Positions 805-62,343 of a stretch of 64,000 bases of DNA are shown piece after piece. A model generated the notes under the pieces. The model saw only the letters and a list, made by a program, of their open reading frames with translations, did no database searches and had not been told where the DNA came from. The position numbers and the translations under genes were made by a program. Every line of letters starts with the position of its first letter. The first letter of the stretch is position 1. The stretch spans positions 26,090,174 to 26,154,173 of the forward strand of contig OU744448.1 of NCBI GenBank assembly GCA_916610825.1, given 5' to 3'. This DNA is from Haliclystus octoradiatus (taxonomy: Eukaryota; Cnidaria; Staurozoa; Stauromedusae; Haliclystidae).

Positions 805-805
<1 letters not shown>

Positions 806-27851: not shown

Positions 27852-30800
27852 TCAGAATAAATCAGGAATTTCTTCACAGGAGTGCTTAATTTTAATTTCT
27901 GTTTTTGTTAACGAACGACCAAATGACGTGATGGATGCCCAATTGATACCTTTGGAATGTAATGTGGAGCCAAAAAAGCCGTTAAGATTTGCATCAAAAC
28001 AGTTCCCATGCCACCAACCTCCACTCCAGTATGATGCACAATTTACAGGAGATTCGTCATTGTCTTTATCTTTTGTTGTGAACTGTCGATTTTTACTTTT
28101 CATACTGAGTGAGTCAGTGGTGTTACCTATAAAATATAAAAGAAATTCTATCAAGGAAATTTCAAGCAAGCTGGGAAGTAATTTTTGATTGCTACTAATC
28201 TCCATGCATTCTTTTGAAAACAAAATCATCTAAGACATATTTTTTGCATCTTCTTATGGCAGAGAACACATCTTTTGAACCCCTTAGTAGACGCAATCAC
28301 CATTGAAATTGGAAATTTGCTTATCATAATGTGAGATATATTGACTGCATTCGCCTTTCTGATTGCAAAATTTGCTCAATCGTGCAGTCAATGTGTCGAT
28401 GAAAGATGTCGAAAAACAGACGTAACTATAAATACCATCACAAGTGCTGCGTTTAGATAAAGAGACTACAACTTAGCCAGGCATGAGCAATGTTAGTCTC
28501 TGCTAAAAGAATCTCTCTTAAAGATATCGAGAACTTAATGATTTTGATAGCTATCATAATTATTCAATCTTTCCCAATGAAATTCCTTCTTCCCAGTTAT
28601 ATGAGAAATTTGTTGCATTCTTGTTATGGCTAATCTCAAATTCCTCAATTTGTAGATTATCGAGAGGGGAATCTTCCTTCTTATTTATTTAGCTTTTTGA
28701 TCCTATTGGCAGAAATGCCTTTTCTCCAGATTTTGCTCGTTTCCTGAAAAGGCAGGCAAAACAAGCGCTTTCACCAGTCAAAAATGTAAAGCTTAATCGA
28801 TGGCGCACCTGTTAACCTCCTGAATTTGGATCCTGAAAATTGCGTTTAAGGCCTTTACGGGTTCCATTAATGTTTTTCCTGGGACATTACGCCTCACCCT
28901 CTTGGAGGGCAGGGCTTTGCCTATCTCCAATCGGACTCAGCTATCTTGCTTGCACCTGTCGAAATCCCGCCCCCTTGAAAAACATACCTGAAAATCCATT
29001 GTAATTCAATCTATAATTACTAGACTCGTCTGAAAGAGTAGTATGATAATATTCTATCCAATAATAATCACTTCCATCCCACAAATTAAAGAGAAGAGTT
29101 ATATTATCATTCTTAATTAATTGATGTGCTTTTTCCAAACCGAGCCAGAAATCACCATTGATAGTTCCAAAACCGTTTTTGTAAGAAGACCAGCCAACGT
29201 CAAAATTAGTATCACCATCGATTCTTTGTTGTAATACTGTCCAGCCTGCACATAACAAATATCTGAATAATTATGACATTTTTACCATTTATGATAAATT
29301 CTAGCTCGTAAATTTTTATAACAACTCTCTTATGGAGTTTTGTGGAAATGTTGATTAAAATCTCATCAATCTTTTAAATTTTGAAATTTTGAAATGTGAA
29401 TTATAAAAGTCAAGCAAATTACAATTGGGCTCGATAACCTGTATTTGAATCAAATTAAATATATTTGCAGTTTTGAAAAAATCATCCTGGGTAGACGAAT
29501 GTGATGAACTATTATATACATATTAGATGTAAATAGTGATGCGAAGATGTCTACACTCTTGCATGGATATAGTGCTCAATCATAAATAACAGTAGCGTTA
29601 ATAGATATCCTTGCCTTGGTGTGAAACTCGGAGTAACGATAACTCGTATGTCTCTTATTTGAATCATTATATTTTCAATATCTCTGGTTCAAACTTACAT
29701 TCCACTTTTACAGAAATAGTTACAGTTTCTACACAGCCACGGAGATGTGCTTTACATTCAAGTTTCTTTCCATCATCACTGTTTAATGCAATGAAGGGAG
29801 ATGTAATCACTCTATTGCCGATTCGGAATTCTTTATTCGTGATTGATTCTCTACTACTTAGTGGGTGGCACTGTATGAAAGTTGGAATGCCAGTCTTCAC
29901 AATTACAGGACCAACTAAGCTCAAAAAAGGGGGTGCTAAATAAAAAGAATATAACGTTATTTGAGTCTCACATTAATAAGCTTCTACTTAACAATTTTTA
30001 ACTAAAGGCTAACGATAGAAAACAAATTAATTGACATTTCGACATATAGGTTGATGTCGAAACGTCAATAAATTTTCTTTTTTTATCATAACTTTGATTG
30101 ATTCATTTTAGAAGAGGTTTCAAATAGATGTGATAAAAAGTTTGAGTGTTAGCAAATATATGTAAACTAAAAATATTTCCTCATGTAATGGGGACATTTA
30201 AATAACCGGTGATGCATACTTGACAAGCAGTGAGAAATATCGATTAAATCAAGACCATTCAAAAGCGCATGATGAATACATTAATATAGATGTATGGAAT
30301 ATAAGAATGGTTAGTAATTTTGTTCAGTTTATAATCCCACTGAAAGGCTGATCCCGAGTGATTTTGCTTTCTACAATTGAAAGTATAATCAAAAGACCAT
30401 AGTTTTCCATGCTGCTTGGGAATTAGCTCGCATTGTATAGCATCACAAATCCATATTGACGGCCTGCTGATAAAACCCGCTGGTTATCCATTCTATATAT
30501 TAAATGGACTCGGACATCAAATGAGTGTCATTTAGCGATAGCTATTGGATACCTGATCCGTAACATCACTCCTCCTCCGTCACCGAGCAGTAAAGGACAA
30601 TTTCTCCTCAATATATGATGAAATTCAACATATTTCGAAGTAGATGTCTTTGTTGTCAAGACGCAGTGGTATGCTGCAGCCTACTTGCATATATTTAGAA
30701 TGCATCTACCTCTGTTGTCCATTGCATCTATAAAATTACCAAATAATGAGTCTGTAGTAATATATTTAGCAATAAAGCCAATGTTGAATGTTGAGTTTAA

Positions 30801-32924
30801 CCTCGTGAGATTTGTAACACATATCACTCATGACATGTGAAGTACGTCTGCCTAACCGTCAGATAAAGCCCTTTGCAGTACTCATCTGATAGACACATTC
30901 TCTAATCTGTCATATTCATCAAAAGTCGTTCTTCAAAAAGTATACGAATAACAATTTTTCCGAAGCAAAGTCTTATGGAATATCGAATAATTGCGATCAC
31001 AGATCTTCGATGAATTCCAGCTCTATATTTGAAAACAATAATCCTACGTACATGAAATAAGGTAATTGTAATAGGAACTAATATCAGTGAATTGCTCGTA
31101 TACTAAATTTGCCCACCGCCTCGTCCGGGTTTTCAAATTGATTATGTAAAATGGAAGAGGCATATGTCCATGCCAAAGCATGTAACCCCAGTGCAATTTT
31201 TTATTAACGAAAAATTTACATTGGAATGTGCATCAAATTACCATCTCTGTATTTCGAACATTGTTCAATCGGCTCAAATTGGGACGATAAAAATCCCTAG
31301 ATTGGGAAAAAAATAAAATGAAAATGATATAATCCAAACTTAGCAGTCATCATAACATAATATAATAAGAAGATATGAATAAAGCATTTGTTTTTCGAAG
31401 ATATGTGTTGCCTTCAGTCCTTAGAAATCACTTGCTTAAAATTTGATCTGATAATGTCATTTAAGCTTTAAACAATTTAGTTGATTTACAGACTTGAAGT
31501 CTGGTGATGGATTCACCCACGTTTGCGATACTCGCGGTCATTCGAGAAAACTTTGCACTCGCTATATTCCGGTAACAAACAGGTCCGGAAATTCATTTTT
31601 TCATCGCGTTGTTCTCTTGTGGAACTCTCTCGCTGAAGAAATTGTCTCGAGCAAAACACAACCAAAATTTAAATCTACAATAGAAAAAATTTATGTTACA
31701 AATGTTACAAAATAGTTTCGTATAATAGTTATGTATATTATCAAAGTTTTGTAAAATGATGCAACCTTTTTATTTGTTTTATCGAAATCCAATAATTTAT
31801 TTTTAGAATTTGCAAGGCCACATACAAGTGAGGATACAATTACAAATATCCTCCTTTGTTTCATTTGCCTTTCAGCCATTTTGCTAAAAATATATACTTA
31901 CATACATACATACATACATATGGAACACGAATAACTGATCAATAATTAATACTACCTTATAGTCTCGGGGTGTCAGAAATAACCACAAAGCTTGACTTAA
32001 AATATCATAGTACGTAGTTAAATAATAGATCCCTCAATAATACAAATTTGTAAAGTAATTGCTAAGGAAATGAATTAAATATAATGCTACAGTTTTCAAA
32101 GTCCTGTAAAGTTGCACTCCATAATCTAAAAAAATGATCTAATACTCGGCACTTCATTCTTGCTTAATTGATTATAGTAATTTTCTCCTTATATGTTAGA
32201 TAGAATCAAATGTAGGTCTTGAACGATTTGCTTCAGATGTGAAACGTCTACAGGCAAAGTATATAGAGGTTTGTCACATGTTCCCAACGAGTTCCTTGAG
32301 AATTATTTAAAGAAAAGATTGATAATCCAGGTTTTGTATTTTGAATAGATCGTGACCTCTGGATGTATTGCTATGCCACATCAACATGGCCGATTTGAGA
32401 AATCTCTATTATTTATATGGTAACCATATAGTGTTGCACATTAAACTACTCCTGTTTTCATTAAAGTTTGAAAATCGATAAAGAAACTTTAGAAATTCAT
32501 ATATAGGGAAACGTTTGAAATCCACCTGGAAAATGTGTACTGCAGAAACAATCTATTTATCAATGTAGCATCAGACACAAAGATTTTATAACAAACTCAC
32601 AAATTCTGTCGTCAATCCTTTGTCAGTTTCAATTTGACCATAGTTAGTACCTTCATCAACAGTTGTCAAGAATTCACAAGCAACTGAATAAGGATGATTC
32701 AATAACTTTTTTCTCACATACTGACATTTATCTGGGTTCATTAAACAACGAAGGCTGCATTGAACTGATGAGGCACCATGAATTAAAGTTGTTTTCTTGT
32801 AGAGCCGTGTCTCTTTCTCTTTTCTTTCCATAAAATGTGACTGTGTTGCAGTTGTGAAGGCACCATGATTGAATGCAACAAATGCAATTGCCAGCAAAAG
32901 ATTATTACTAATCATAGAAACCAT
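27852..32924 (-). CDS. Gene 1: secreted PAN - Ig - fibrinogen-related (FREP-like) protein, five exons, open
   Basis: Exons (minus): 32924-32601 (signal peptide and PAN), 31296-31242 (55-nt linker), 29935-29699 (Ig), 29245-28988 and 28126-27852 (FReD, TGA stop). They total 1149 nt, about 382 residues; phases 0,1,1,1 fit. The ATG follows directly on an acceptor, so a 5' UTR intron is likely. The leader is N-N-L-L-L-A-I-A-F-V-A-F. The PAN part has V-Q-C-S-L-R-C-L. The linker is 18 codons ending S-K-Y-R-D. The Ig part has I-Q-C-H ... L-E-C-K. The FReD has G-W-T-V-L-Q-Q-R, G-D-F-W-L-G-L, the calcium-site-like D-K-D-N-D, N-C-A-S-Y-W and G-I-N-W. Likely a secreted recognition lectin. The first ~40 residues of a normal FReD are missing. 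Confidence 0.82.
31494..31740 (+). mobile_element. LINE 3' fragment (C-terminal ORF2 tail)
   Basis: Encodes R-G-H-S-R-K-L, S-F-F-H-R-V-V-L-L-W-N-S-L-A-E-E-I-V, the usual end of CR1/Jockey-like ORF2 proteins. It lies in intron 1 of gene 1. The right part (from 31586) is repeated at 51239; the left part is not. Confidence 0.65.
31892..31921. repeat. (CATA)n microsatellite
   Basis: Five to six CATA units; a slightly shorter version lies at about 51541-51562 in the duplicate. Confidence 0.85.
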
Positions 32925-33137
32925 CTGAAATAATAACAAAGATGTGTCTAAAACTCAAGTAGAGCAAATTCTATAACGAACTTGGGATCCTTTTGGTACT
33001 TCATAATAACGCTGCAAATTTATTGCGCTATTCTGCCAGTCTTTTACCAATAGCTTAAAACAATCGATCCTCATAGGATTGAGAAGCTTTGTTATGAAAA
33101 TGGTGTACAACTACTTGCCTAACCGATCATTTTGTGT

Positions 33138-33185
33138 AACTATAACAATTGGCTCAGATGGTAGATCAACCGAGCTTCAGAGTAA
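33138..33185 (+). mobile_element. tRNA-derived SINE, left half (A box), split by MITE
   Basis: A box GGCTCAGATGG at 33151-33161. It continues at 33907 (B box GGTTCAAATCC at 33935-33945). Joining the halves over a single TAA matches the uninterrupted copy at 16040-16160. Confidence 0.6.
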
Positions 33186-33906
33186 AGCCCGGTTTCCACT
33201 TGACGAAAAATTCGCTGCAGCGAAAATTTCGCGGCTAAAAAGCCAAGTACGCATGCGCTGTGTGACGTTGCACACAATTTTGGACCACGCAGGTTTCGCT
33301 GCAACTTTCGCTGAAGCGAAAAAAGTAGTTGGAATTGATCCTACTTTTTTGCGATTCGCTGCAGCGAAATGTGAATCAAACCAATGCAAATCATCTGAAA
33401 ATGATGTTGTCATGACATTTTCAGCAAACAAGATGGCGGGATGAAATTTGTAGCCTGTATTGCTTTGTTGCCTGAAATTTGTAGCCTGTATTTTGTCAAT
33501 TGTGAATTTTTAGACCAATCATTACATAAAATTGTTCAAATGTCGAATGACATATTTTCGAAGAGAACGGTAAAAATATTCGATTATTTTAGAGCTTCAT
33601 TTCCTTTACGAGTAAATGAAACTCTCCTTTCTCTTTCCTCTCTTCAAATAATTTCCGGATCCAGAATGGTTTACTGTATTTTCTTGCATAAACTCTACGT
33701 CTTCTGAGCAGAAACATTTGAATAATTTGTAGTCGTGCAAGCAATACAGCTTCCAAATTGACTGGTGCCATGATGGATTTTCATAAAATGTAGATTTTGG
33801 CGCGCGAAAAATATTTCAAGTGGAAATGAACCAGCGAAAATTTCGCCGCGAAAGTAGCCGCGAATTTTTCGTTGCAGCGAAATTTTCGTCAAGTGGAAAC
33901 CCGGCT
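33186..33906. mobile_element. 721-bp MITE with ~50-bp inverted ends and TAA target duplication
   Basis: Left end AGCCCGGTTTCCACTTGACG, right end its inverse with few mismatches (AGCCGGGTTTCCACTTGACG). Homology continues through CGCTGCAGCGAAAATTTCGC-type sequence to about 50 bp. Flanked by TAA at 33183-33185 and 33907-33909; the related empty site at 16100 has a single TTAAGATC. A 3-bp TAA duplication is typical of PIF/Harbinger. No transposase is encoded. Confidence 0.75.
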
Positions 33907-33990
33907 TAAGATCTGATCAGATCTGATCGACTGTGGTTCAAATCCCGGAAGGTCATATTTAGATTGCGTGACCGCACGACTGGAGTTGAT
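33907..33990 (+). mobile_element. tRNA-derived SINE, right half (B box)
   Basis: TAAGATCTGATCAGATCTGATC then the B box at 33935-33945; see the left half at 33138-33185. Confidence 0.6.
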
Positions 33991-34982
33991 AAATAAATGC
34001 GCAAAGAGGAATAATCGTGAATGAAGATAATCACTTGACATACGTCATAAGCGTTCGTGATCGTTCAACCTTATGCTATCATGAGTCAAACCATCATTTC
34101 GCATGTTCTTAAGAATTAAATTAGGAGAAAGTTAAAACTCTATGTTACTTGACAAGCAGACTACTCATTTCGATAGTGAGTATTTACTTACTTATATCAG
34201 TTAGAATTTAATGGGGAAATTAATCATACTCTTTCAAATTGCTTGATTACATGGAATGTGTTATTAGAAAATACAAATTTTTACGGTTAATAATGAATTT
34301 ATAGTTATACTTTTCGGCAATCAATATCGAATTAAATATCATCAATAAACTGATTATTAATCGCGTTATCGCGTTGACATCTCCCTTCCCCATTCAAACA
34401 GCTGTATGCTTTTGGTATGACCCCTCAACAACAACTAAGTATGTACTTAATGGGTGGCAGTACTTTTTCAAAATATCACAGTATTTCAAAGATTCCTGAC
34501 TATTAAAACGTTAATTATAGCTAATCAAAAAACTCGCAAGAAGTAAACGAAAGCAGAATCGAAAAAGAGCAGTGTGAATGATTATCCTTAAAAAATTCAT
34601 TTGAATCAAATATTCTATCCACGACAGGATATACTCATGGGCTGGATAGTAATATGTTTTTCTTCTCAACAACGATAAGTCATGCTCCTCTAGATAATCA
34701 CATTATAAACAAACCATATTTATGCTCAAGGATTTTCATGAATTATTAATTGACACAACTTTGCTGGCTATTATCGTTGTAACTGCAGTAGTGACAAAAT
34801 GCTACGCCGAAAATGTTCTGTATCAGCTTTCCGCTTGACTGACAATGTCCTGCTACTTTCCCTATTCTATTTTTCTGGTTTCTATTACATGCTATCCCCA
34901 CCAATTATAATTCTGAATTTACTTCTTCTGCCGTTTTACAGTTGTCACACAGTATCACACTTTAAAGCAATAGCTGTTCTCT

Positions 34983-37179
34983 GAGAAAAACAGTATCATG
35001 GAATGTGTTCATATTGAACCGATTAAAAATGCAATTTCAGATGGACAGCTTTAACAAGGACAGTAATTTTACGGTCACAGACTTCGATTCATTTAAACGC
35101 ATATAAACGGGCATGGAGAAAAGAAAGAATCTTGGAAAGACGGTAAACATAGCGTTTGAGTATAATAGTATAATACTTACTTACTTTTGGTTTATATATT
35201 GATTACCGCTCGAGGCTTAAAACTCAATCCAACATTGGGTTTCTATAATTACTCTTATCACTATCGTTATTAGTGCTATAGTTTAAATTCGTATCAATAA
35301 TATTATACGAGATGGAAATGTTAAAATTGATAACGATTCACACACTTTTACTATATCGAAATTAATAATCTCCAAGTATGAGATCTTCATTGATTTATAG
35401 TATTGTGAGCATTCTTACCTTCTTATAGCCCTTCTTTGTTTCTGCTAACTTTCAATTAAAAATGTTGAATACATTTTATCAATCCATCAACATTTAACAT
35501 TATGCCCTTTTCTCGATCGTGTATGATATAAAATGTTCATCTGTTAGACTGTCACGCCCAAATAAATTAGTTGAGTGCATTACATAGGCAAGCACGTATT
35601 ACAATAAGATAAGTCCACCATGTGGCATTTAATCTATTGAAACCAGCTGCATTAACAACGAACGAGATATGAATATCTGTAATTGAATTATCTCTCAAAT
35701 GGGATATCCTGACCCTAATTAAATTGCCTGCGGGAAACAAATCTTTTTACATTTCAAAATACTCATTAGGACGTTGTTACGGTTTATGATGACTGTTAGA
35801 CTTCACGGACTGGGACCGGTTGGCGGAATCAGATGCCAAGAGCAAAACTTGTGCAATGGTGATTCAAATAATAAATCCACAAGCAACCTTAAATTCATAA
35901 CAAAATTTTGCATGGATGCTATTTTTATATTTTCGACACTATAGAGGCTTCTGTGTGTGTGTGTGTGTGTGTGTGCAATTTTATTTAACACCATTTTTCA
36001 ACATGTTACGATAATCCATTATAGAGCATTCCAATATTTCATTTGCGAATGCGTTGTAATTGCTTGGCCTATAAATTATTATAAAATCATATGTGGCTGC
36101 TCGTGGGCTTTTTGGTGGGGAGGGCAGGGGGCGAATTCCCCTAAAAAATGTTGTTTAACCCTCTCCACGAAGCTATGGACCGAAAGCCTCTCCATTGTTG
36201 CTGTAGTATGAATATTCTATTGACTATTCAACTCTATTGACTAAGTTGACCGATCTTATTGACATAACAGCGTTGCTTGAAAGCTTATGGGCAAGCGTCT
36301 GCCGACAATAGCGTTTAATTCTGCCTTATTAGCGCCTGCGCGTAAACATCTAGTTCATTAAAACCATTGTTATTTATGGTCAAAGGCGTCCTCTGCTCTT
36401 CTTGACGCCACCAAAATAAAAAGCTCTTTGAAAGAATGCTGCTTGCGTCAACCGTCAACGCTTTGTGTGGAATAACCTCAATATGTATGTGATAAAAGAT
36501 GTCGTCTTTATAAATAGAGCGTCAAACGGTGGAAAACTTTAAAACCATGTTGCTAAAGCAGATTTCGATACGTAATAATAATTCATTAAACTGTTCGAGA
36601 AGTTGGAAATATCAAAATGAGTGAAGGGATAATTCCATGTCATTGAAAGCATGCTTTCTAAATAGCTATTTGAAATGACAACGAAGGCACTGCCCCGAGT
36701 GCCATGTGGACGAGCCGCCACTGATAATCATCAAATGTGATACTGATTGGTTATTTTTGATTGTTGCGTTAGGAAAAGTAAGCTGTAACATTACGGATTC
36801 TGGCTTGAATCTCCAATATGCAACAAACTAACAATAGAGAAAAATGGCGTTCAAGCCTCATTATCGTGCAAATTTTTTAATGAGAACGAGATCAGCTTTT
36901 AAAAACCAAATGCATTTGACCTATTTTGATTAGCATTTTTTTAATCCGTTATATGTATTAGCACGCCTGTTCAGTACAGTTCATTGACGGATATAGAATT
37001 GTTTTATACCTCTATTTACTAATGTAACTATAATCTTCTGTTAATCTTGTTGATAACGCTGGAGAATTACTATCTAGGTGTCACGGGTGATGTCAATGTC
37101 GAAGCAGTGTTGTGTATTTTCAAATATATTCTCTTCCAATCTGGTGGCAGGAATGTTTATGTTGATGTTCACAGGCTTT
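34983..37179. other. Intergenic part of the duplicated unit (copy 1)
   Basis: No gene recognised. Holds a (TG)n tract (35952-35975) and a GC-richer patch near 36090-36180. Same content at 52624-54824. Confidence 0.5.
35952..35975. repeat. (TG)n microsatellite, 12 units
   Basis: The duplicate at 53592-53620 has about 14 units, a length change since duplication. Confidence 0.9.
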
Positions 37180-38289
37180 ATATCAACGATCTATGTTAGC
37201 AAAGTTTTACTTTCGACTATATGTTCATCAAAAAGGTGAAATGTCGCCATCAAATTTATCTAACTTTCAACCCAAAAGCAGAAAATGAACCAATTTTTTC
37301 TAAATCACGCATTGAAGCATGTCTTACTGATGTTGACTCTTGGATGACTTCAAACAAACTTTTGCTGAATGGCAGTAAGACTGAATTTCTCCTCTTTCAT
37401 GCTCGTCATCGACCCTTGCCGCCATTAAGCTCTATTAGTATTGGAGACAGTGACATCACAAATTCAACATCAGCTAAAAACATTGGCGTTTGGTTTGATG
37501 ATATACTATCAATGGATAAACAAGTGAAAGCCATCTGTAAAACTGCATTCTATCATCTTCGCAATATAGCCAAGATAAGAAAATATATTTCATTTAAACA
37601 TTGTGAAATTTTAATTCACTCATTTATATCATCAAGAATAGATCATTGCAATATATTACTATCTGGAATTACAAAAGAAAATTAACATAAGATACAATGC
37701 GTTCAAAATTCTGCTGCACATGTACTGACTTTCAAACGAAAATATGATCATATTACACCAATTCTACAAGATCTTCACTTGCTACCTGTAAAACAGCGCA
37801 TTAAATTCAAAATTTTAATCATCACATATAAAGCATGGTACGGAATGGCACCTAGTTATTTGACAGAACTATTGCTTCCTCGTATACCAATTAGAACTTT
37901 GAGGTCTAAAGATAAAATGCTACTTGTCCAACCAAAATGTCACTTGAAGACCTACGGATGTCGATCATTCTCCAACGTAGCGCCATTATTGTGGAATGGT
38001 CTCCCATTTGAAATTCGCTGTTGTACATCACTTGAACAATTCAAAACCGAAGTAAAAACGCATTTGTTCAAAGACTATTTTAATTTAAATTAAATTAAAA
38101 CATAATTATCATTCTATTATGCTGTAGATGTTTAACAATGAATCTTACCTTATACTTACTTACCTTATGTAATTCATTTTGTATATACCTTTTATTTAAT
38201 TTTATTACTATATAATCCTGTAAAGCGCCATTGGATTCATCAAGAAATGGCACTATAAAAATGCATATTATTATTATTATTATTATTAT
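37180..38289 (+). mobile_element. L2-like LINE fragment, copy 1 (ORF broken)
   Basis: Encodes from about 37221 the C-terminal RT region: D-S-W-M-T-S-N-K-L-L-L-N, K-T-E-F-L-L-F, K-N-I-G-V-W-F-D, then L-L-P-V-K-Q-R-I-K-F-K and a last block ending F-K-D-Y-F-N-L-N (stop near 38091). The order LNxxKTE - GV - LPVxxRIxFK is that of CR1/L2-clade LINEs. The 3' UTR ends CACTATAAAAATGCAT and a (TAT)n tail (38264-38289), as in L2 elements. A TAA at 37683-37685 breaks the frame where the duplicate has TTA. Confidence 0.8.
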
Positions 38290-39953
38290 CATGTTCCCAA
38301 ATGTTTTTAAAGCTATTATGTCATTCCTTGCAGTTCTTCCCTCTACGAGTTTTATTTCCTAGCCTGAACATTATATAGGTCTACAATTAATTTTTTTTTT
38401 CATTGATCAAACAAGTATTATATTCAACTAACGGTATTGACAGAATTAATAACTACTTGCTGTTCAGATTTTAATCAAAATAATGAAGAGCAATTTGTTT
38501 CAAAAATGAAAGACAATAGATCTTTTCGCCTATCTAAGGGCTGGTCTTTCAGAGTTTAATGGTTCATCTAGACACACAGGTACTTCTGAAAGTTTTTCTA
38601 TTTATAGTTATCCTAGTAAATCAATTCAGTATAGCTTGTATTATTTTAAATATCATAAAATTTACTTTTTTAAGAAAATCTTTCACAGCTTCAAATAAAA
38701 CATTTTCGGTCAAGATTCCAATTAGCCTTCTATTTCATCTACCAGCTACATTATCAAGATATGAAATTATAAAGAATCTCTAAGTTTTCTGATACAATGA
38801 TATAAAAAAAAAAAAAAAAAAATTCTAAACTAGGTCAGAAATTCATGAATTCACACCTCAATATCGTTCACTTTATACAAGGTTATCTCTGCACAAATGT
38901 TTACATGATTTGCCAATAACGGATTATCTGTATTAATATCTGTACTATTCGGCCAGTCAGTTGTCATAAATCCAGGACAGCCAGCCCACAAATATCGAAA
39001 TATGAAATATTTTATTTACAAACATACACAAATAACCGAATAGGTCACATACAGGAGTAACCTTGAAAATCAGCTTCAACCAGAGGTGTGATAACGCCTG
39101 GATATATATTTTTTTAATTATACTTCAGATGTGAAGAGTTTTTTAGTCATCTTTTAAGCTGGGTTTCTTTATAGCTGGCAAACAGAATTCGCTGCTTCAA
39201 ACATCGAAGAAAACTAACCTGGTATATCGTTGATGCAGATTGTCATAAGATAATCAATGGAATTTGATATTATTGCTGCTGATCGAGCCATCCTGTTACG
39301 ATTATTTCAACAAGCCAGTCATCATATGATCAGTTAATTGTTCAAGGCAATTTGATTCATCCAATTTGTTTATTGAACGGCCTCGTGCCAGTGTATTCCA
39401 ATAATCCAAATTGTGAAATGTTTAGTCTAGCACAGTGGCATCCAACCTACTATTTTGCATTAATGCTGAACGGAACTTGTGAAAGGTTTGAGGGGGATGC
39501 TTTGTGAGTCGTGAGAATGATATATAATAATCATATAATAATATTATTCCATGTTTAATGTAACAGTTTTGCACGTACGAAGGCACTTAAGAAAACACTT
39601 CACCTGTGACATCCAGAGTTTCAATTTTATAGCTTGACTTTTCTCATCCTAGTAATGACATAAAGAATGATAACATAACGAAGTATAATTTATAAATATG
39701 TAACAGCACACAATGCACTATATATTAAGCAATTGGCGCACAGTTTCCTAAGAGCTATTGAGATTTGGCGCACGAGAGGCACGTAAGGAGAAAACGAGTA
39801 GGCATCAGTAAATTGCTGACTACCTCGGCGAGTAATTTTCGCCTTCAAGTTTTCTGCTGAAGTGACTAATGATCTTCCACAATATAAACAGACCCGATTA
39901 CAAAGTCTGTTTCATTTTAGAAAATGGTTATCACATGCTGTATTTGTATTACA
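38290..39953. other. Intergenic (copy 1)
   Basis: No gene recognised; contains a poly(A)-like run at about 38803-38821. The minus-strand stretch near 39350-39590 is open in the duplicate (56950-57234) but not intact here, so I do not call a gene. Confidence 0.45.
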
Positions 39954-40136
39954 GGGTTACTGAACGGCAGCCGTGTTTGGGTTCTCTGATACAAACACGC
40001 GGGATGTTGGGAGACACGAGAAAGCATCAGAAAAACAAGAGCCCGTAGGGCTTGTGTTTTTCGCTTTCGAGTGTCTCCCTACATCCTAAGTGTTGGTATC
40101 AGAGAACCCAAACACAAGGGTGCCGTGCAGTAACCC
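39954..40136. mobile_element. 183-bp foldback (hairpin) element, copy 1
   Basis: GGGTTACTG at 39954 pairs with CAGTAACCC at 40128-40136. Inner blocks TTTGGGTTCTCTGATAC / GTATCAGAGAACCCAAA and GGGAGACACGAGAAAGC / GCTTTCGAGTGTCTCCC also pair, and the tip is AGCCCGTAGGGCT. Almost the whole length folds on itself, as in hairpin MITEs. Confidence 0.75.
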
Positions 40137-40257
40137 TTTCGTGAAATAAAACATATTTTTATTATTTTTAATCGAATTTAACATAAAAGATTTGACTGAT
40201 TAGATCAATTTTCTCCTATAAATATTCACGTCTTCGTCATATTTGCCTTTCTTCGAA

Positions 40258-41072
40258 TCACAGATCCAGAGTTCTACTTTCGAAACACTTTTGACTCTTT
40301 CGAACGCTATGATTTTGATCTGTCTTTTTTCTCACTTCTGCTGTGTCGCAAGCTTTTGCCGGTTTTGTAAGGCATTTTTGTCTCGGAATAACCATCATAA
40401 CCAAACAAATGATGCAAAGAAGAAGGATGCCTAGAATTATAATACTATATTCTGAAATATATATCATCAACGATGTTAATAATGCAATTTTTATATTTGC
40501 AATTAATTAGAAATTTTGGATGTTTTTTCTCTCATGATGTCTAAGTTGTTTTGGCTTGCGTGATCCAAACATGGGAGTAAGCCAATTAAATCACTAGAAC
40601 AGCATTCGAAAATCTATCGAGTTTTACAATCATATTTTTACCACACTCGAGTAATGTTGAAAGCACTCGTGTTTTCTAACATCTCTCGTGTAGTAAATAT
40701 GAATACAAACACGACAAGTGCATGGTAGCCCGTTAATACAAAATAAATTGTAACTATGTTATTAACATGGACTATTAATAAGAAATGGAATTTACCAAGA
40801 GAAAAATTATTTTTTGAATTTTAGATTTTATGCATGAGAATTTGATGCCATGTATGTAAAGTTACAGAAATTTGGTAAAGGTTTCTTATGTATAAAGTAA
40901 GTGCCGATTGGGTATGTACGAGGGATTCGATTGAATAAGATACTTCTGGTAAGTACTTCAGCAATTTTCGTTAAACAGACCATGCTATTAATAAAGAGAT
41001 AAACTTACCACATTCAGAATTTTTGTGGGGTTCATGTGGTGGTTTATTGTCGTTACGGAAAACTCGTTTCAT
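40258..41072 (-). CDS. Small single-pass membrane protein, two exons, 85 residues (copy 1)
   Basis: Exon 1 41072-41009 (ATG; M-K-R-V-F-R-N-D-N-K-P-P-H-E-P-H; GTAAGT donor, phase 1), exon 2 40451-40258 (acceptor TATTTCAG, stop TGA). A short basic/polar N-terminus, a strong membrane segment (I-I-I-L-G-I-L-L-L-C-I-I-C-L-V-M-M-V-I) and a ~40-residue basic tail with four cysteines. The codons before the ATG contain an in-frame stop, so exon 1 is not a continuation of an upstream coding exon. Not recognised. It lies between FREP-like genes on the same strand and was copied with them; only one obvious residue differs in the duplicate (L to Q in the membrane segment), which favours a real gene. Confidence 0.5.
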
Positions 41073-42817
41073 TGTCGTGATTCACTGATAAATCAAGTAC
41101 AAGAATTCTCATCGTTTACTATATTTGTGAACTGAATTTGCAAACTGAAGGGGCTTACAATAACATTCGAATTTAGATTATCATATCATCAATTAAACAA
41201 TGTTCAAAATAATTTACATTTTTGTTTTGTTAGGTAAAGTTGGCTTAATGGGAGTTTTCGAATAATGGGGAGATGAATCCCCAGCTGGTGTTTCCTTGTT
41301 CGTCGTGATTGGATCTTGTTTAGAAGTTGATTTACAAGTTGGAAGAAATAATTGAAAAGCCACTTTTCCGTCAGAAATTGGTATGGAAACTGCCAAAACC
41401 GGGTTTAAGCGCCAGAAAATAAATTTCGTTCGTTCTAAGCGGTACGAAGATTTCGAAAAACTTTGTTGTGAACGAAGCTGTCTGTTAAAAGTTTTTTGGG
41501 TTGATTCCGTAGAGATGCGCAGTGTAAGTGCGCACAAAGACATTTCGACTTCGTTCCGAATCTAAACCTCCCTAATGCTCTGTTTTACTCAACATTGAGC
41601 ATTTTCACATTACATGTGTATCTGTGTTTACATTCATTAAAATTATTTTTGAAATTTATTATTATAAATGACATGAGTAAAAGCTCAAATACAAAAAATT
41701 AGTATATGAAAACTAAAAGAAAATGAATGCTTTACAATTAGAAATATAAATAATAATACAATCAAAAACATACGTATCAGTCTTCAAAATTACAACGGCA
41801 TAGCGTAGTATGAATTTATAATCTTCTTTCGTATCTAGTTAATGAAAGTATTAGATGATGAGTATAATTGTCAGGAAAGTGATGGCCATTCCAAATTATT
41901 TGAGAGTAAAAATTTGGTAATGATTAAAGCATTTATTTTTGTCATTGTAATATGTCTGGTATGGAGAGGCTGGTAAATTTTAATTGTCAATTAATGGAGT
42001 GTTCTAAGGTCTAATTTTCAGTTTAAGCTAGTTCAATTATATTTGGGATCTTTTCATGATCTGAAACATTTTTATGGTCTTCCTCCGAACGTTATTTGAG
42101 CAGCCCCCGTCCAAGCGCAATGGAAGTTAACCCTCGGGCTTTTCAACTAAAAACAATGGATTTCTTCATTCATTGGAAGTTTTCAACATCAGTAGTTATA
42201 AAGCGTGACTATGTGTTTGTTTGCGTTTATTGATATCGCAGTGGAAATACGGAATATCACGCCAAAGCTCACAATCGTGAATTAACACAATTTATGCTAA
42301 TTCTTCAATATTAAAACTTTGCCAAACAACATCAGATAGCCATGTTAGCAAAATGCTATTCATCAGGGAGTTAAACACAAATTGAATAAACAATCTGACT
42401 CTTAAGGGCAAAACCAATTCAACGTGTATATTCCGTTTATTTAGACATTTAGTTATGATATTTTTATAACTAGATTATAATTATTTTTTTAATTCTTCAA
42501 CTTACAAATGTAATATACAGCAGTCGAAGCGTCGTATCTTGTATTTATAATAATTAGACTAATTTCCATGTAAATAGATATAAAGTATTAAATAAGCATC
42601 CTTGCATGACGTAACGTCATTTTTGTTCAAATGCTTTGTTTTATAACTTTTAAGTGCCCTGCTTGTTCCTATGGATTTCAGAGCAACATTTCAAATTGTT
42701 TGTTTTATGTTCAAATCTAGGAATGTTTCAAGTAGTCATGGATCCAACTCTGAACGTAACACACAATTTTTCCATGTATATTATCTACATATATTAGAAG
42801 AGATAATTATAGAATTA

Positions 42818-48800: not shown

Positions 48801-51800
48801 TTTAAAAACCTACAAAAAGAACACATATTACCCCCAACCTCACCCTAACGAAAAGAAATTCACAGAAAAATTTCAAACGAGATTCGTTGCACTCTGAATA
48901 CATGTAAACGAGTATGCTGCGTGGGAATTTCTCGTTTTTAACGATGGATTTAAGTGTAGTGAATGTAGCAACAACTATTTTGCATGATGTCTAATTGTGA
49001 CTGAAATTGTGACTGAAATAATTCCCCTATCATTAAATTGAAAACTTTAATTAAAAAGATATGATTGTGATGGTGAACTTCAATGCTTACTATGCCAAAA
49101 TATTGTCAGCTCCGAAAAACACTGTAAAGATCGTAAATCGTATCATTAATCATAAGACTAAACTTTAGCAGATGCTCTGACAAATAGTCAAAAGAAAATA
49201 ACGTAGCAAAATGTTATATTCACTGCACACAAAACCATTGCTCACTCCGAAATAATCCCACGTGGCAATCTCATTTATTTCAAAGCAGAATACAATGGAT
49301 CTTATTTTAAATTTTTTCGTAAATTTCTTTCCATTCTCCGTAAATCTGACGAGGCCTAAATTGTGCTCTGTTCTGCCACTGAACATTTTCGCTTACCTGT
49401 GTTTACCTCATATTATATTACATCCGGGTTACAAATATAACAAATGAGGGAGTGACTAATGACTATCGTAATTGTTTCTTTGCGCAAAGTTGATGGTAAT
49501 TCAGTATTACAATAAATGAATAAATAAATTGATATTCACCATCTTCGTATTTGTTGCATGGGTTCATCTGCTCGATGTTGCTAGGCAACAATTCCTAAAT
49601 GAATCAAAAGTAATAGCTCACTAAATCATCATTGATAGAGACACGCACTTAACATCCAGAACTGTTACTCTAAAGTGTTCTGAGACTGCTTTGTGGTACA
49701 GTGACCAGGGCCTCTAGCACCTATATACACTATAGTTGAAATAGAAATAACTTGAAAAATGGTTGATTTGTCGTTGCTTCAACATCAAATTAAAGAACTT
49801 TCCTGCTGCAGATCCAGCACATTGCTATATGCAGACGCTTTTTCTTCAAAATCGCAAAATTCAAATAAACTCTTACAGATTATAAGTAATTTATAAATAA
49901 TTGTAAAGATTATTTTATTCTAAGCGATACAAAACTTCTTATTAGCTACATTCCAGGTAATTGTAAAGTCTTGCCTGACGATTTTTATTCTCAGACGAGA
50001 AGTTGTAAAGGACCCACACGCTCCTTCTTGAATACTCAAACGCAATGGTGATTAACATTTAACTCCACATAAGGTTTCAATAGAAAAGCAAAGAAATAAG
50101 GTTCAAATTTGATTAGTTTTAACGAGAGAGAGGCTCGGAACCTTTGATTACAGTTGTTTTAGTTGAAACCAACTAGGGTACTATTCGATGATCTGCATTC
50201 TGATTGGCAGCTCAATTGTTCACTATTTTCTCGTAGTGAAGGCTGACAAGTTCCCTCGAAAATCTCAAAAGTTAACAGATTCGCAAATATTTTTGATGAA
50301 CCAATTTCATACGAGAGTCTTATAAATTCCGTCTTCGAGAAAACAAAACAAGAAACAAAATATGAGATGAAGTTGCTTAATGGTAGGCTAATCTTATTTA
50401 ACAATCTTCTCGCAATTTTTTGTCGTTATTTTATTGCAGATTAGTTTGCTAGTGTCAGCTAAAGTTTATAAACAACAAACTTCTATGTTAAATACTGCAA
50501 ACATTTATATATATTTTTAGATACTCAAACTCAATAGCTACTTTGCTTAAGTTTGCTATTTTGTGGAGTTGTATTTTTGTAGCCAGTAATAATTTCCAAC
50601 TGTTTTGTTCTAAAAATCAAATCTGAAACAAGTCAAATTAATTAAAATTCATCCTTCAAATCACGACGCGCTGCAATCGTTATGGATGCCTTTGATAAAT
50701 CTCTGTATTTGAAATTAACTATGCAGGAAGTGAATAAATAGTTGAATTGATTTCTTTTCATATGGTTTGCTTGTACCACTAATTAGTTTCTACTAAAACA
50801 ATTACACAACTCGCCCATGTTGTATCCCGTCCTGAATAGTCACCTCGTCACTATTCGACGGTAGCCAAAATCAGGCTTGTTGTCTAATTGGTAAATAGTT
50901 GGATTTGGATAGAGCACTCAAAATATGTATGCTATTCAGAAATCTGCACACGTCAGAACGAGAGGTAAGCATTTCTCACTCTATGGCTTAATTACGTACT
51001 ATATTTCTCCATCACTTCCACTGCAGATGAGAGCTGATTGTAAAAAAACTGATTACACATTAAATACTAACATGGGTTTAGGACGTGGATTCAAATTAAT
51101 TAGTTTCTAATAGCAGGTTCCTGACCACGAGGCAACGAAAGACTGTCTGAATGTCAGTCCCAATTACGAATATACTCTGCTGGTTAACAAGAATATTTTA
51201 TCATAATACAATATTTTAGAATAAGTTTCGGAAATTCATTTTTTCATCGCGTTGTTCTCTTGTGGAACTCTCTCGCTGAAGAAATTGTCTCGAGCAAAAC
51301 ACTACCCAAATTTAAATCTACAATAGAAAAAATTTATGTTAAAAATGTTACAAAATAGTTTCGTATAATAGTTATGTATATATTATCAAAGTTTTGTAAA
51401 ATGATGCAACCTTTTTATTTGTTTTTTCGAAATCCAATAATTTATTTTTAGAATTTTCAAGGCCACATACAAGTGAGGATACAATTACAAATATCCTCCT
51501 TTGTTTCATTTGCCTTTCAGCCATTTTTCTAAAAATATATACTTACATACATACATACATATGGAACACGAATAACTGATCAATAATTAATACTACCTTA
51601 TAGTCTCGGGGTGTCAGACATAACCACAAAGCTTGACTTAAAATATCATAGTACGTAATTAATTAATAGATCCCTCAACAATACAAATTTGTAAAGTAAT
51701 TGCTAAGGAAATGAATTAAATATAATGCTACAGTTTTCAAAGTCCTGTAAAGTTGCACTCCATAATCTAAAAAAATGATCTAATACTCGGCACATCATTC

Positions 51801-52565
51801 TTGCTTAATTGATTATAGTAATTTTCTCCTTATATGTTAGATAGAATCAAATGTAGGTCTTGAACGATTTCCTTCAGATGTAAAACGTCTCCAGGCAAAG
51901 TATATAGAGGTTTGTCACATGTTCCCAACGAGTTCCCTGAGAATTATTTAAAGAATAGATTGATAATCCAGGTTTTGTATTTTGAATAGATCGTGACCTC
52001 TGGATGTATTGCTATGCCACATCAACATGGCCGATTTGAGAAATCTCTATTATTTATATGGTAACCATATAGTGTTGCACATTAAACTACTCCTGTTTTC
52101 ATTAAAGTTTGAAAATCGATAAAGAAACTTTAGAAATTCATATATAGGGAAACGTTTGAAATCCACCTGGAAAATGTGTACTGCAGAAACAATCTATTTA
52201 TCAATGTAGCATCAGACACAAAGATTTTATAACAAACTCACAAATTCTGTCGTCAATCCTTTGTCAGTTTCAATTTGACCATAGTTAGTACCTTCATCAA
52301 CAGTTGTCAAGAATTCACAAGCAACTGAATAAGGATGATTCAACACCTTTTTTCTCACATACTGACATTTATCTGGGTTCATTAAACAACGAAGGCTGCA
52401 TTGAACTGATGAGGCACCATGAATTAAAGTTGTTTTCTTGTAGAGCCGTGTCTCTTTCTCTTTTCTTTCCATAAAATGTGACTATGTTGCAGTTGTGAAG
52501 GCACCATGATTGAATGCAACAAATGCAATTGCCAGCAAAAGATTATTACTAATCATAGAAACCAT
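42818..52565 (-). CDS. Gene 2: PAN - Ig - fibrinogen-related (FREP-like) protein, five exons, stop in the leader
   Basis: Exons (minus): 52565-52242, 49594-49540, 48216-47977, 44696-44439 and 43074-42818. They total 1134 nt (378 codons), phases as in gene 1, and the linker (55 nt) and first FReD exon (258 nt) have identical lengths in both genes. Exon 1 is nearly identical to gene 1, but CAG has become TAG at 52484-52482 (codon 28), just after the signal peptide. The linker reads L-P-S-N-I-E-Q-M-N-P-C-N-K-Y-E-D. The Ig part has I-E-C-Q and L-T-C-T-A. The FReD has G-W-T-V-V-Q-R-R, G-D-F-W-L-G-L-E, D-R-D-N-D-E, N-C-A-S-H-W-S-G-G-W-W and G-I-N-W-S-S-I. All other exons are open. It is a null allele, a young pseudogene, or uses another start. 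Confidence 0.78.
43075..44438. other. Intron between the FReD exons of gene 2
   Basis: Holds two direct copies of a CGTGC(C/T)GAACCAAA motif (about 43212 and 43388), possibly ends of a small repeat. Nothing else recognised. Confidence 0.4.
45784..47599. mobile_element. Possible DNA transposon with CCCAGCAG ends
   Basis: CCCAGCAGGCA at 45784 and, inverted, CCCAGCAGACA ending at 47599. Next to each end are CCAACATT / GTTGGACCAAC-type blocks facing outwards. No transposase and no clear target duplication were found. It lies in an intron of gene 2. The left end is repeated at 63429 in duplication copy 2. Confidence 0.35.
48217..49539. other. Intron between Ig and linker exons of gene 2
   Basis: A plus-strand frame at 48418-48726 is open but not recognised and lies opposite to the gene. 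Nothing supported. Confidence 0.4.
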
Positions 52566-54824: not shown

Positions 54825-55934
54825 ATATCAACGATCTATGTTAGCAAAGTTTTACTTTCGACTATATGTTCATCAAAAAGGTGAAATGTCGCCATCAAAT
54901 TTATCTAACTTTCAACCCAAAAGCAGAAAATGAACCAATTTTTTCTAAATCACGCATTGAAGCATGTCTTACTGATGTTGACTCTTGGATGACTTCAAAC
55001 AAATTTTTGCTGAATGGCAGTAAGACTGAATTTCTCCTCTTTCATGCTCGTCATCGACCCTTGCCGCCATTAAGCTCTATTAGTATTGGAGACAGTGACA
55101 TCACAAATTCAACATCAGCTAAAAACATTGGCGTTTGGTTTGATGATATACTATCAATGGATAAACAAGTGAAAGCCATCTGTAAAACTGCATTCTATCA
55201 TCTTCGCAATATAGCCAAGATAAGAAAATATATTTCATTTAAACATTGTGAAATTTTAATTCACTCATTTATATCATCAAGAATAGATCATTGCAATATA
55301 TTACTATCTGGAATTACAAAAGAAAATTTACATAAGATACAATGCGTTCAAAATTCTGCTGCACATGTACTAACTTTCACACAAAAATATGATCATATTA
55401 CACCAATTCTACAAGATCTTCACTTGCTACCTGTAAAACAGCGCATTAAATTCAAAATTTTAATCATCACATATAAAGCATGGTACGGAATGGCACCTAG
55501 TTATTTGACAGAACTATTGCTTCCTCGTATACCAATTAGAACTTTGAGGTCTAAAGATAAAATGCTACTTGTCCAACCAAAATGTCACTTGAAGACCTAC
55601 GGATGTCGATCATTCTCCAACGTAGCGCCATTATTGTGGAATGGTCTCCCATTTGAAATTCGCTGTTGTACATCACTTGAACAATTCAAAACCGAAGTAA
55701 AAACGCATTTGTTCAAAGAGTATTTTAATTTAAATTAAATTAAAACATAATTATCATTCTATTATGCTGTAGATGTTTAACAATGAATCTTACCTTATAC
55801 TTACTTACCTTATATAATTCATTTTGTATATACCTTTTATTTAATTTTATTACTATATAATCCTGTAAAGCGCCATTGGATTCATCAAGAAATGGCACTA
55901 TAAAAATGCATATTATTATTATTATTATTATTAT
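54825..55934 (+). mobile_element. L2-like LINE fragment, copy 2 (290-codon frame open)
   Basis: Duplicate of 37180-38289. Here the frame is open from 54866 to the stop at 55736-55738. It lacks the N-terminal RT catalytic region, so it is still a 5'-truncated, inactive copy. The 3' tail (TAT)n ends at about 55934. Confidence 0.8.
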
Positions 55935-57601: not shown

Positions 57602-57784
57602 GGGTTACTGAACGGCAGCCGTGTTTGGGTTCTCTGATACCAACACGCGGGATGTTGGGAGACACGAGAAAGCATCAGAAAAACGAGAGCCCGTAGGGCT
57701 TGTGTTTTTCGCTTTCGAGTGTCTCCCAACATCCTAAGTGTTGGTATCAGAGAACCCAAACACAAGGGTGCCGTGCAGTAACCC
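57602..57784. mobile_element. 183-bp foldback element, copy 2
   Basis: Duplicate of 39954-40136 with better pairing of its arms (GATACCAACAC and GGATGTTGGGAGACA pair where copy 1 has mismatches). Confidence 0.75.
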
Positions 57785-57905
57785 TTTCGTGAAATAAAAC
57801 ATATTTTTATTATTTTTAATCGAATTTAACATAAAAGATTTGACTGATTAGATCAATTTTCTCCTATAAATATTCACGTCTTCGTCATATTTGCCTTTCT
57901 TCGAA

Positions 57906-58720
57906 TCACAGATCCAGAGTTCTACTTTCGAAACACTTTTGACTCTTTCGAACGCTATGATTTTGATCTGTCTTTTTTCTCACTTCTGCTGTGTCGCAAG
58001 CTTTTGCCGGTTTTGTAAGGCATTTTTGTCTCGGAATAACCATCATAACCAAACAAATGATGCAAAGAAGAAGGATGCCTTGAATTATAATACTATATTC
58101 TGAAATATATATCATCAACGATGTTAATAATGCAATTTTTATATTTGCAATTAATTAGAAATTTTGGATGTTTTTTCTCTCATGATGTCTAAGTTGTTTT
58201 GGCTTGCGTGATCCAAACATGGGAGTAAGCCAATTAAATCACTAGAACAGCATTCGAAAATCTATCGAGTTTTACAATCATATTTTTACCACACTCGAGT
58301 AATGTTGAAAGCACTCGTGTTTTCTAACATCTCTCGTGTAGTAAATATGAATACAAACACGACAAGTGCATGGTAGCCCGTTAATACAAAATAAATTGTA
58401 ACTATGTTATTAACATGGACTATTAATAAGAAATGGAATTTACCAAGAGAAAAATTATTTTTTGAATTTTAGATTTTATGCATGAGAATTTGATGCCATG
58501 TATGTAAAGTTACAGAAATTTGGTAAAGGTTTCTTATGTATAAAGTAAGTACCGATTGGGTATGTACGAGGGATTCGATTGAATAAGATACTTCTGGTAA
58601 GTACTTCAGCAAGTTTCGCTAAACAGACCATGCTATTAATAAAGAGATAAACTTACCACATTCAGAATTTTTGTGGGGTTCATGTGGTGGTTTATTGTCG
58701 TTACGGAAAACTCGTTTCAT
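57906..58720 (-). CDS. Small single-pass membrane protein, two exons (copy 2)
   Basis: Exon 1 58720-58657, exon 2 58099-57906; same splice sites, length and stop as 40258-41072. The membrane segment reads I-I-I-Q-G-I-L-L-L here, so one polar residue has entered it. Confidence 0.5.
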
Positions 58721-60464: not shown

Positions 60465-62343
60465 TTAGCAGGAATGTTTAATTTTAATTTCAGTTTTTTT
60501 CAAAGAGCGATCGAAGCCTGTGATTGATGACCAGTTAATTCCTTTTGAAAATACAGTAGAGCCGAACAATCCATTCAAATTTGCTTCAAAACAGGCTCCA
60601 CACCACCATCCCCCACTCCAGTGTGAGGCACAATTTTTGGTTACACTTTCATCATTGTCCCTATCTTTGGTTGTAAACATTCGATTTTTACTTTTACGAG
60701 TCATTGCATCAGTAGTATTACCTAGATGAGTAAACAAAATTAAGCTCAAATCATTTCAAATATTTTATTGAAAATCGGTACGGATTCAAATTAATGTAGT
60801 TCAAAAGCAAAATCTCCAGAGCATTGATTAGGCTTCTAAGGCTTAGGTTATACGTTCGTGCTGAACCAAAAATATTTATTTAATTGTGTTAAGTTCATCA
60901 GCTGGCACTCTCTGTATAACCCTAATCGTTTCGCCCTAAGGTATTTGGCCCATTCCTAATTGCTGGGGCGAATAATCCTGGCTCTCTGCGCTACTCTAGA
61001 TCATCTCCATGTTATTCAGACGGGCTAGTGTCGTGCCGAACCAAATTATTTTTATCATGGGAACCATGACTATTTCATAGATCGTCCTTATATAGCTAAA
61101 AACTGGGGGTCGTTGCTATCTTAGTCTCAGTTTCATGACATTACTATGATGATTAGCTGAGAAATTAAGCAAACATTTTCAATGATCTTTTATCAATAAT
61201 CCAAACTACTTGTTCAATAATCCAAGCGACACAAATCTGTTTTGATTTATTTATCAGTGATCTACAAAATGAGGTATAATGCAAGTACTACTCATTCTAT
61301 CAATTTTAAAATGAGTATAATATTTCAAGCACATGATGTTTTCAAGGTAACATTTGAGTCCTTTGATAAACGAAAATTATGCTTACATCGTACGTCGTAT
61401 TGTATGACTTTTTATGTTGAATAATGATATTCCAACCATGCTATGTGTTTTGATTTAGTTATCGATAATGTACAAGATGGTATCAAAATAGCATCACGAT
61501 TATTGGGATTTTATTACGGTTATTAATTAAATATCTTATAGTAATAATAATAATTCATAAAAAAGACCAAGTTGCTTCTTTCCCATTTTCAATTAATATC
61601 ATAATCCATATAAATAGCCCTTTTCCTTAAAGTTTATTTAATTTCTAGTACAGTTTCCGGAGAAGCAATTCCTGTTGATAAATTTATTGGCAGTCGCCAT
61701 TTTTTCTTCTGCTCGCGCTACAAAGGTCAGATTTCATCCTTCAAATGATCAAAATTCAAATTTTGGTAATTGGTTCTTCGCTTGGCTCGACTGTAGAACC
61801 CGCAGCGGTACCGAACATCTATTATAGGCACGCACTTAATTGGAATATGGTACGACACGACAGTATAACCTAGGCCTGAGGCAAAACGTATTTTGATATT
61901 TATCTTTCTTCTAATCAGATTTTACGATATTACTTATATATTTATCAATATGTTGGGTTTCAAAATTCAATCCAGACACCATCGAAACGTTTTACAAATG
62001 ATAATGAACTGCTGCTGTCAGCATTTATGTGAAATTTCAAGATGAAGATTATTTAAAAAGAAATGAAAAATGCAAATGGATTTACCTTGATTTCCATTGA
62101 AATCTAATCGATAGTTGTCTGTTTCAGCTGATAGAGTAACGGAATAATATTCCATATAGTAATAGACATCATTGTCCCACATATCGAAGCGAAGTATTAC
62201 ATCCTGATTTTTCATCAAGTTAAACATTGGTTCTAGACCAAGCCAAAAGTCGCCATTCAAATCTCCAAAGCCTTGTTTGTACGAAGACCATGTAGCGTCA
62301 AAATCAACATTTCCATTAACTCTTCTCTGAACCACAGTCCAGC
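60465..62343 (-). CDS. Gene 3 (partial): FReD exons of a third FREP-like gene
   Basis: Exons 62343-62086 (258 nt) and 60721-60465 (257 nt, stop TAA), splice sites as in gene 2. The protein is almost the same as gene 2 (L-E-P-M-F-N for L-E-P-M-V-N; K-N-R-M-F for K-T-R-M-F). The calcium-site-like D-R-D-N-D and the cysteine pair N-C-A-S-H / G-A-C-F-E are kept. Ig, linker and PAN exons would lie to the right of the window. Confidence 0.8.

Follow-up and report, generated by a model that had tools for sequence, protein, structure and literature searches.

Most of the literature found on proteins that combine fibrinogen and immunoglobulin (Ig) domains concerns snails. Biomphalaria glabrata has 73 fibrinogen-related domain (FReD) genes, among them a fibrinogen-related protein (FREP) with a single Ig superfamily domain (1-IgSF) and a PAN/Apple domain, which goes under the names Bg179 and FREP1, apparently for one gene; PAN/Apple is also present in four oyster genes and in some limpet FReDs (PMC7588048). 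The CniFL proteins of sea anemones were found by their collagen, Ig and fibrinogen Pfam domains, and mostly have three Ig domains and a transmembrane domain (PMC5094078). The FREP family of a sea anemone is vastly expanded, with some members in mature cnidocytes (PMC12549020), and placozoans have 18 fibrinogen-domain gene models (PMC6321704). Here we describe an array of four genes in the staurozoan Haliclystus octoradiatus, which begins in a window of 64,000 nucleotides (the whole stretch of DNA analysed) on chromosome 3 (G000:C4:26090174-26154173, C4 being the contig of the window). We put at about an even chance the reading that the four genes encode proteins of ~380 residues, each with a probable signal peptide, a four-cysteine module, a linker, a C2-like Ig domain and a fibrinogen domain, that these act as secreted ficolin-like lectins, and that the array was shaped by Ig insertion and by duplications with breakpoints in intron 1. 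A literature search, with most subscription journals outside its reach, found nothing on this locus.

The predicted array genes place one Ig domain upstream of a C-terminal fibrinogen domain, in keeping with the molluscan definition of a FREP (one or two Ig domains in that position). FREP1 of Biomphalaria glabrata has PAN/Apple, one Ig and fibrinogen, a composition, if not necessarily an order, like that of the array, in which PAN is unproven (PMC7588048). A sequence-only reading of the window had called PAN ahead of Ig a non-standard FREP layout; the layout is unusual, but the same snail gene, as reported, provides a precedent. Two further differences emerge: snail FREPs have a coiled-coil between Ig and fibrinogen, whereas the predicted Ig exon of the array joins the fibrinogen exon directly and in frame, and the snail Ig is described as V-type, whereas the array Ig profile matches adhesion-type domains. 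CniFL proteins are, like the array, cnidarian and combine Ig and fibrinogen (PMC5094078). Their definition by collagen, Ig and fibrinogen does not cover the array, which has one Ig exon and in which a Pfam scan of the 382-amino-acid (aa) gene 1 protein returns Fibrinogen_C only.

All four genes lie on the minus strand and have in common the exon order front exon, linker, Ig, fibrinogen exon 1 and fibrinogen exon 2. The gene search was extended 60 kb to the right of the window, and positions above 64000 are given in window numbering; the array extends past the window to ~86.5 kb, so that the tandem array proposed from the sequence alone holds with four genes. Gene 1 starts with a 324-nt exon 1 (32601..32924), an open reading frame (ORF) that ends in phase 0 at the donor GAATTT/GTGAGT. 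It is followed by a 55-nt linker exon (31242..31296, phase 0 to 1, peptide GFLSSQFEPIEQCSKYRD), a 237-nt Ig exon (29699..29935, phase 1-1, assigned through relatives and a model), a 258-nt fibrinogen exon 1 (28988..29245, phase 1-1, ORF Pfam Fibrinogen_C 3.7e-21) and fibrinogen exon 2 with the stop codon (27852..28126, ORF Pfam 6.7e-18). Spliced together, the five exons give an intact ORF of 382 aa. Exon 1 of gene 2 (52242..52565) is a duplicate of gene 1 exon 1 and has an in-frame TAG at codon 28; the remaining exons are the linker (49540..49594, 55 nt, peptide ELLPSNIEQMNPCNKYED), Ig (47977..48216, 240 nt, phase 1-1), fibrinogen exon 1 (44439..44696, 258 nt) and fibrinogen exon 2 with the stop codon (42818..43074). 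In gene 3, fibrinogen exon 1 (62086..62343, 258 nt) and modelled fibrinogen exon 2 with the stop (60465..60721) are within the window and the other exons to its right (65621-65860, 67182-67236 and 69882-70205), forming an intact ORF of 377 aa. The gene 4 front exon (87948-87643) is a different member of the gene 1 front-exon family, 41% identical to the front exon of gene 1, and its third codon is TAA. Reading frames are intact in genes 1 and 3 only; the stop-bearing exons of genes 2 and 4 were kept unedited. The earlier description of two full five-exon models and a partial one is confirmed in its exons and strand, but gene 2 is not open.

Genes 1 and 2 agree, as had been noted, in the lengths of the 55-nt linker and the 258-nt first fibrinogen exon, in all phases and in the predicted AG/GT boundaries. 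The linker is short and cysteine-bearing; of its 18 residues, 7 are the same in genes 1 and 2, an agreement matched by 8 of 200,000 shuffles. An inherited architecture is borne out by exons 2-5 of genes 1 and 2, which are independent, but not by genes 2 and 3, which are tandem duplicates (an 11,382-base match at 99.1%); because both sit in the tandem duplication, their agreement is no independent evidence. Exon 1 is not independent between genes 1 and 2 either, since it sits in duplicate copies (1,399 bases, 98.2%).

The fibrinogen domain is certain. Against a Pfam Fibrinogen_C cutoff of 22 bits, the spliced gene 1 protein scores 139.9 bits (1.4e-40) and the body of gene 2 scores 143.5 bits (1.2e-41). 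It is not full length: the match spans profile positions 40-219 of 221. A motif scan of the Ig-to-fibrinogen intron for the missing start found none in gene 1 and two chance-like candidates in gene 2. The short form may be the usual one for this family, since relatives on contig C1 (L063-L065) appear to enter the domain at the same place, with a fibrinogen exon that seems to open immediately ahead of the W-T-I-L-Q-R-R motif. L063 and L065 also have a micro-exon of 25 nt, phase 0-1, with one cysteine (NECQETVN). Full fibrinogen domains are also present in the genome, as the single-exon match at C2:38826418 spans profile positions 2-221.

The closest solved sequences are tenascin-R (2.2e-33), ANGPTL2 (7e-31), FIBCD1 (2e-30) and the ficolins (~3e-30 and weaker), with tachylectin-5A at 2.1e-21. 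Ficolins, FIBCD1, tachylectin-5A and tenascin share the fibrinogen domain with the array from query residue 2 to ~168 (E 2e-33 to 2e-21). The alignments begin at chain residue 43-53 of ficolins, FIBCD1 and tenascin (89 in tachylectin-5A), the first part of the domain being absent in the array, and in all of these proteins, tenascins included, the partner domains are other than those of the array. Tenascin-R, ANGPTL2 and FIBCD1 align with the array at a D-K-D-N-D stretch (D-S-D in FIBCD1) and at a Trp-rich WSGGWW...C region flanked by two cysteines. The D-x-D-N-D and WSGGWW...C regions correspond to the sites for calcium and ligand in ficolin-type domains. The array protein would be secreted and act as a ficolin-like lectin that depends on calcium. 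Its ligands would be sugars or acetylated groups of microbes or of mucus, and the front module and the Ig domain might serve assembly or partner binding.

The Ig domain which the sequence-only reading had placed in the third exon is supported, as one C2-like domain, by the profile of its relatives and by a modest structure model. The Ig exons of genes 1 and 2 have no Pfam Ig match, and a three-row profile of the array Igs has no match in the PDB. Eight relatives were fetched from contigs C6, C2 and C1, of which L061 was dropped and seven were used. The nine-row profile (two window Igs plus the seven relatives) matches SYG-2 at 8.6e-9 and VCAM-1 at 1.8e-4 in the PDB, and Pfam Ig_2 is matched by three of its nine members with E no higher than 10, the strongest at 2.9e-5. 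With boundaries drawn by consensus, the seven relatives are putative phase 1-1 exons ending in T/GTAAGT or T/GTGAGT, as in the array. The best of five two-sequence AlphaFold models has a pLDDT of 71.8 and a pTM of 0.63, mean pLDDT across the five ranging from 71.8 to 32.1. The top Foldseek rows are Ig domains of Dscam, Fc receptors, siglecs and VCAM; the 50 rows listed also include some non-Ig beta folds. Tandem Ig exons related to the array Ig also occur at G000:C6:8.22-8.34 Mb and 8.51-8.56 Mb; they repeat every ~7.68 kb and 2.19 kb, and their scores are the same or almost so.

The PAN domain ascribed to the first exon is not established: there is no Pfam PAN match and no clear likeness to true PAN exons beyond four cysteines. 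The front-exon family was aligned in 20 rows taken from 25 genome matches; the five set aside are the near-identical copies in genes 2 and 3, two C10 copies that are identical, and L041. In an exon with a hydrophobic start, the family has four invariant cysteines, spaced C-x3-C-x6-C-x15-C in gene 1, and by eye this arrangement is reminiscent of PAN. None of the 20 members matches a Pfam PAN domain, and neither do the single exons or the exon 1 plus linker sequences of genes 1 and 4. Searched against the PDB, the family profile finds no PAN, only integrin alpha-E at E 1.8. Alignment of the family to true PAN_1 exons by hhalign gave E 0.038 and a probability of 1.4%; the PAN_1 alignment comprised 10 of the 13 loci read, L064, L067 and L073 being omitted as near copies or incomplete. 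The mean hidden Markov model (HMM) score of the family does not stand out, at 2.33 versus 1.98 for shuffles that keep the cysteines and 0.66 for full shuffles, and three of the 20 members outscore 97 or 98 of their own 100 cysteine-kept shuffles. A single-sequence structure model of exon 1 was too poor for use (pLDDT 52.8). By contrast, the ten PAN_1 exons of the same genome, used as a profile, find a Kelch-domain protein (4.7e-9), which presumably holds PAN domains. They also find apicomplexan microneme proteins (7e-6); the matches to HGF (0.05), plasminogen (0.08) and factor XI (0.14) are weaker. Elsewhere, three identical PAN-like front exons with 4,588-base spacing are found at G000:C10:8597704-8607071, with unrecognised downstream partner exons; partner domains are likewise unrecognised for the PAN-like front exons at L053, L076 and L077.

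Genes 1 and 4 are old paralogues, and their comparison reveals purifying selection on exons 2-5. Nonsynonymous (dN) and synonymous (dS) divergences, estimated by NG86 with Fisher tests run on the rounded counts, are 0.35 and 1.35 over exons 2-5 (p 4e-16), 0.26 and 1.64 in the fibrinogen part (p 2e-16), 0.55 and 1.08 in linker plus Ig (p 0.017), and 0.47 and 2.54, near saturation, in exon 1 (p 2e-7). Protein change is faster in linker plus Ig (dN/dS ~0.51) than in the fibrinogen part (0.16). This difference bears on the reading that the proteins have an extracellular matrix, mucus or attachment role in a sessile animal rather than one in defence. The best solved-structure match, tenascin-R, is a matrix protein and the Ig profile matches the adhesion molecules SYG-2 and VCAM-1; on the other hand, ficolin and FIBCD1 domains match nearly as well as tenascin-R, and faster linker and Ig change is unexpected for a plain structural role, so that we regard such a role as distinctly unlikely. 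The same counts speak to whether most of the array is decaying or has lost its function, its front exons being inert. The exon 1 stops of genes 2 and 4 would suit a remnant, but genes 1 and 3 are open across five exons and the synonymous excess between genes 1 and 4 is strong, although it tells of the past and not of the newest copies; we judge a remnant very improbable.

Three near-identical units of ~17.6 kb (piecewise match 98-99.5%) make up the repeated part of the array. Copy 1 (31586..51228) is 19.6 kb long because it includes ~2 kb (32983..34980) without a counterpart in copies 2 and 3, either an insertion in copy 1 or a deletion in the other two; copy 2 (51229..68868) passes the window end at 64000 and copy 3 occupies 68869-86460. 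Leaving out left ends and gaps, copies 1 and 2 differ at 111 of 16,235 sites (0.68%), copies 1 and 3 at 84 of 16,189 (0.52%) and copies 2 and 3 at 105 of 16,183 (0.65%). Sites at which one copy is the odd one out number 41, 26 and 15 for copies 1, 2 and 3 in the first seven 1-kb bins, and 4, 39 and 23 in the last ten, which cover the gene body. This shifting pattern of informative sites across 31586-86460 suggests exchange or gene conversion between the units. Divergence of just 0.5-0.7% is also a plausible allelic distance, and assembly curation took out 33 haplotypic duplications (PMC9975415); the units might then be alternative haplotype copies assembled in tandem, an artefact compatible with any functional reading. 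It is made less likely by the number of units, three rather than two, with similar pairwise differences, and the same source reports a HiFi assembly with a quality value (QV) of 56.6 and Hi-C curation; we think it quite improbable.

Each end of the unit falls between a front exon and its linker, on the left in gene 1 and on the right in gene 4; copy 1 itself starts in intron 1 of gene 1 and stops in that of gene 2. With these boundaries the unit puts a gene 1 front on a gene 4 body, and in genes 2 and 3 the front exon matches gene 1 and the body matches gene 4. By sequence comparison, then, genes 2 and 3 are chimeras joined inside the phase 0 intron 1. Genes 2 and 3 would have arisen through a duplication whose breakpoints lay in the first introns of two adjacent genes, and through a further round of unit duplication. 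Homologous crossing-over was rejected for the first duplication, as the sequences joined at the unit junction share about one base. The units also contain ORFs at 37,200-38,093 and 54,845-55,738 that by eye resemble the end of a non-LTR (long terminal repeat) reverse transcriptase, the second having no Pfam match at 1e-3; this ORF is single in unit 2, and a stop splits its unit 1 counterpart in two.

Genome scans covered 261,861,806 bases on 33 contigs of Haliclystus octoradiatus. The mitochondrial contig carries cox1 (by Pfam) and cox2 (by eye) in divergent orientation, cox2 being followed by a tRNA with anticodon TCA, an arrangement that suits a medusozoan. They gave at least 155 Fibrinogen_C matches (150 of 491 candidates scored) and at least 76 PAN_1 matches (150 of 285 candidates scored); the counts are lower bounds because only the best candidates were scored. 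Pairing was assessed against 139 of the listed fibrinogen rows; a further 11, with a match to the C-terminal exon only, were set aside. A same-strand fibrinogen exon lies within 20 kb downstream of 22 of the 76 listed PAN_1 exons, compared with a mean of 0.56 and a maximum of 8 in 1,000 rotations; other placings are 11 upstream on the same strand and, on the opposite strand, none downstream and three upstream. The pairs are clustered, six of the 22 belonging to one C1 cluster, and hence are not independent. This genome repeatedly places a PAN_1 exon ahead of fibrinogen exons. Three genes of this type on contig C1 (L063-L065, in the region C1:33.99-34.10 Mb) were read with PAN_1 as the front exon. 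Like the array, they end the front exon in phase 0 and enter fibrinogen in phase 1; they have a short cysteine linker, though of 25 nt (L063 and L065), and over the first fibrinogen exon their identity with gene 1 is 47-54%. Unlike the array, they show no Ig exon, and their Pfam-recognised PAN_1 front, which takes the position held by the four-cysteine module in the array, is of a different sequence family.

None of 63 hand-picked Ig positions, chosen as representatives of the matches, has a listed same-strand fibrinogen exon within 60 kb downstream, and three Ig-fibrinogen pairs within 60 kb are in other arrangements. Within these limits, the Ig plus fibrinogen layout is seen solely at the array locus. 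A phase 1-1 Ig exon may have entered a gene of the PAN-fibrinogen type between the linker and the fibrinogen exon. The locus would then display the build-up of an Ig-bearing subfamily by addition of a symmetric Ig exon, followed in recent time (units 0.5-0.7% apart) by tandem duplication that combines one gene's front exon with another gene's body. If transcripts confirm the models, the repeated and perhaps independent origin of Ig-fibrinogen recognition proteins becomes directly testable in a non-bilaterian. In one of the three pairs in other arrangements, on contig C10 (G000:C10:14454976-14471640), a Pfam Ig_3 exon lies ~16 kb downstream of a same-strand fibrinogen exon and may belong to a neighbouring gene.

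A secreted lectin-type role would be the most likely, with defence as its most likely use and immune recognition plausible. The proposal that the array is a cluster of recognition receptors would fit the anatomy of the locus, but exon 1 carries a stop in two of its four genes. The proteins might instead be cargo of stinging or gland cells, such as nematocyst content or a venom accessory. Fibrinogen exons are numerous here as well, as the genome count attests; the ficolin-like sequence features are kept, which tells somewhat against cargo though it is compatible with it too, and we consider this unlikely. Beyond the lectin reading, a broader and tentative possibility, to which we give rather low credence, is that the array is diversifying now. 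Intron 1 is phase 0 throughout the array, and breaks within it would put new fronts in frame on the Ig-fibrinogen body, so that tandem duplication alone could yield chimeric recognition proteins; the front would be a new lineage-specific cysteine-rich family rather than PAN, and the array a young, independently arisen cnidarian counterpart of the snail FREPs.

Several points count against the reading of the array as functional, secreted lectin genes. Exon boundaries and splicing are predictions from genomic DNA. The proteins are probably secreted, yet the hydrophobic N terminus of gene 1 exon 1 (MVSMISNNLLLAIAFVAF) is signal-peptide-like by eye only. The front module is not recognisable as PAN; the label "PAN-like" reflects position and cysteines only, and membership of that fold is unproven. 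Of the 21 PAN-like front exons found elsewhere in the genome, none is followed by a listed fibrinogen exon in the next 60 kb, which speaks against the front family as the usual fibrinogen partner. The Ig model is modest, its best Foldseek E value being 5.7e-3 and none reaching 0.001, and absence of the first ~40 fibrinogen-domain residues could weaken folding. Finally, with exon 1 interrupted by a stop in genes 2 and 4, the array may be partly decayed.

To the left of the array, the window contains other features. Near-identical copies of a reverse transcriptase element occupy 1-7,970 and continue leftward, some as direct repeats (99.7%, spaced by 2,593 bases) and some inverted; the ORF at 1013-2968 matches Pfam RVT_1 at 5.8e-11, and its end appears GIY-YIG-like, hence Penelope-type, both by eye. 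A simple AAT/ATT repeat of ~1.7 kb (7,869-9,561) adjoins these copies. An exon of a CAP/cysteine-rich secretory protein lies at 18295-18546 (Pfam CAP 3.2e-5), and a possible second CAP exon, judged by eye and lacking a Pfam match, at 17130-17360. A long ORF at 20,338-22,206 encodes a TNP/P-element-like transposase (Pfam TNP-like_RNaseH_N 2.7e-26).

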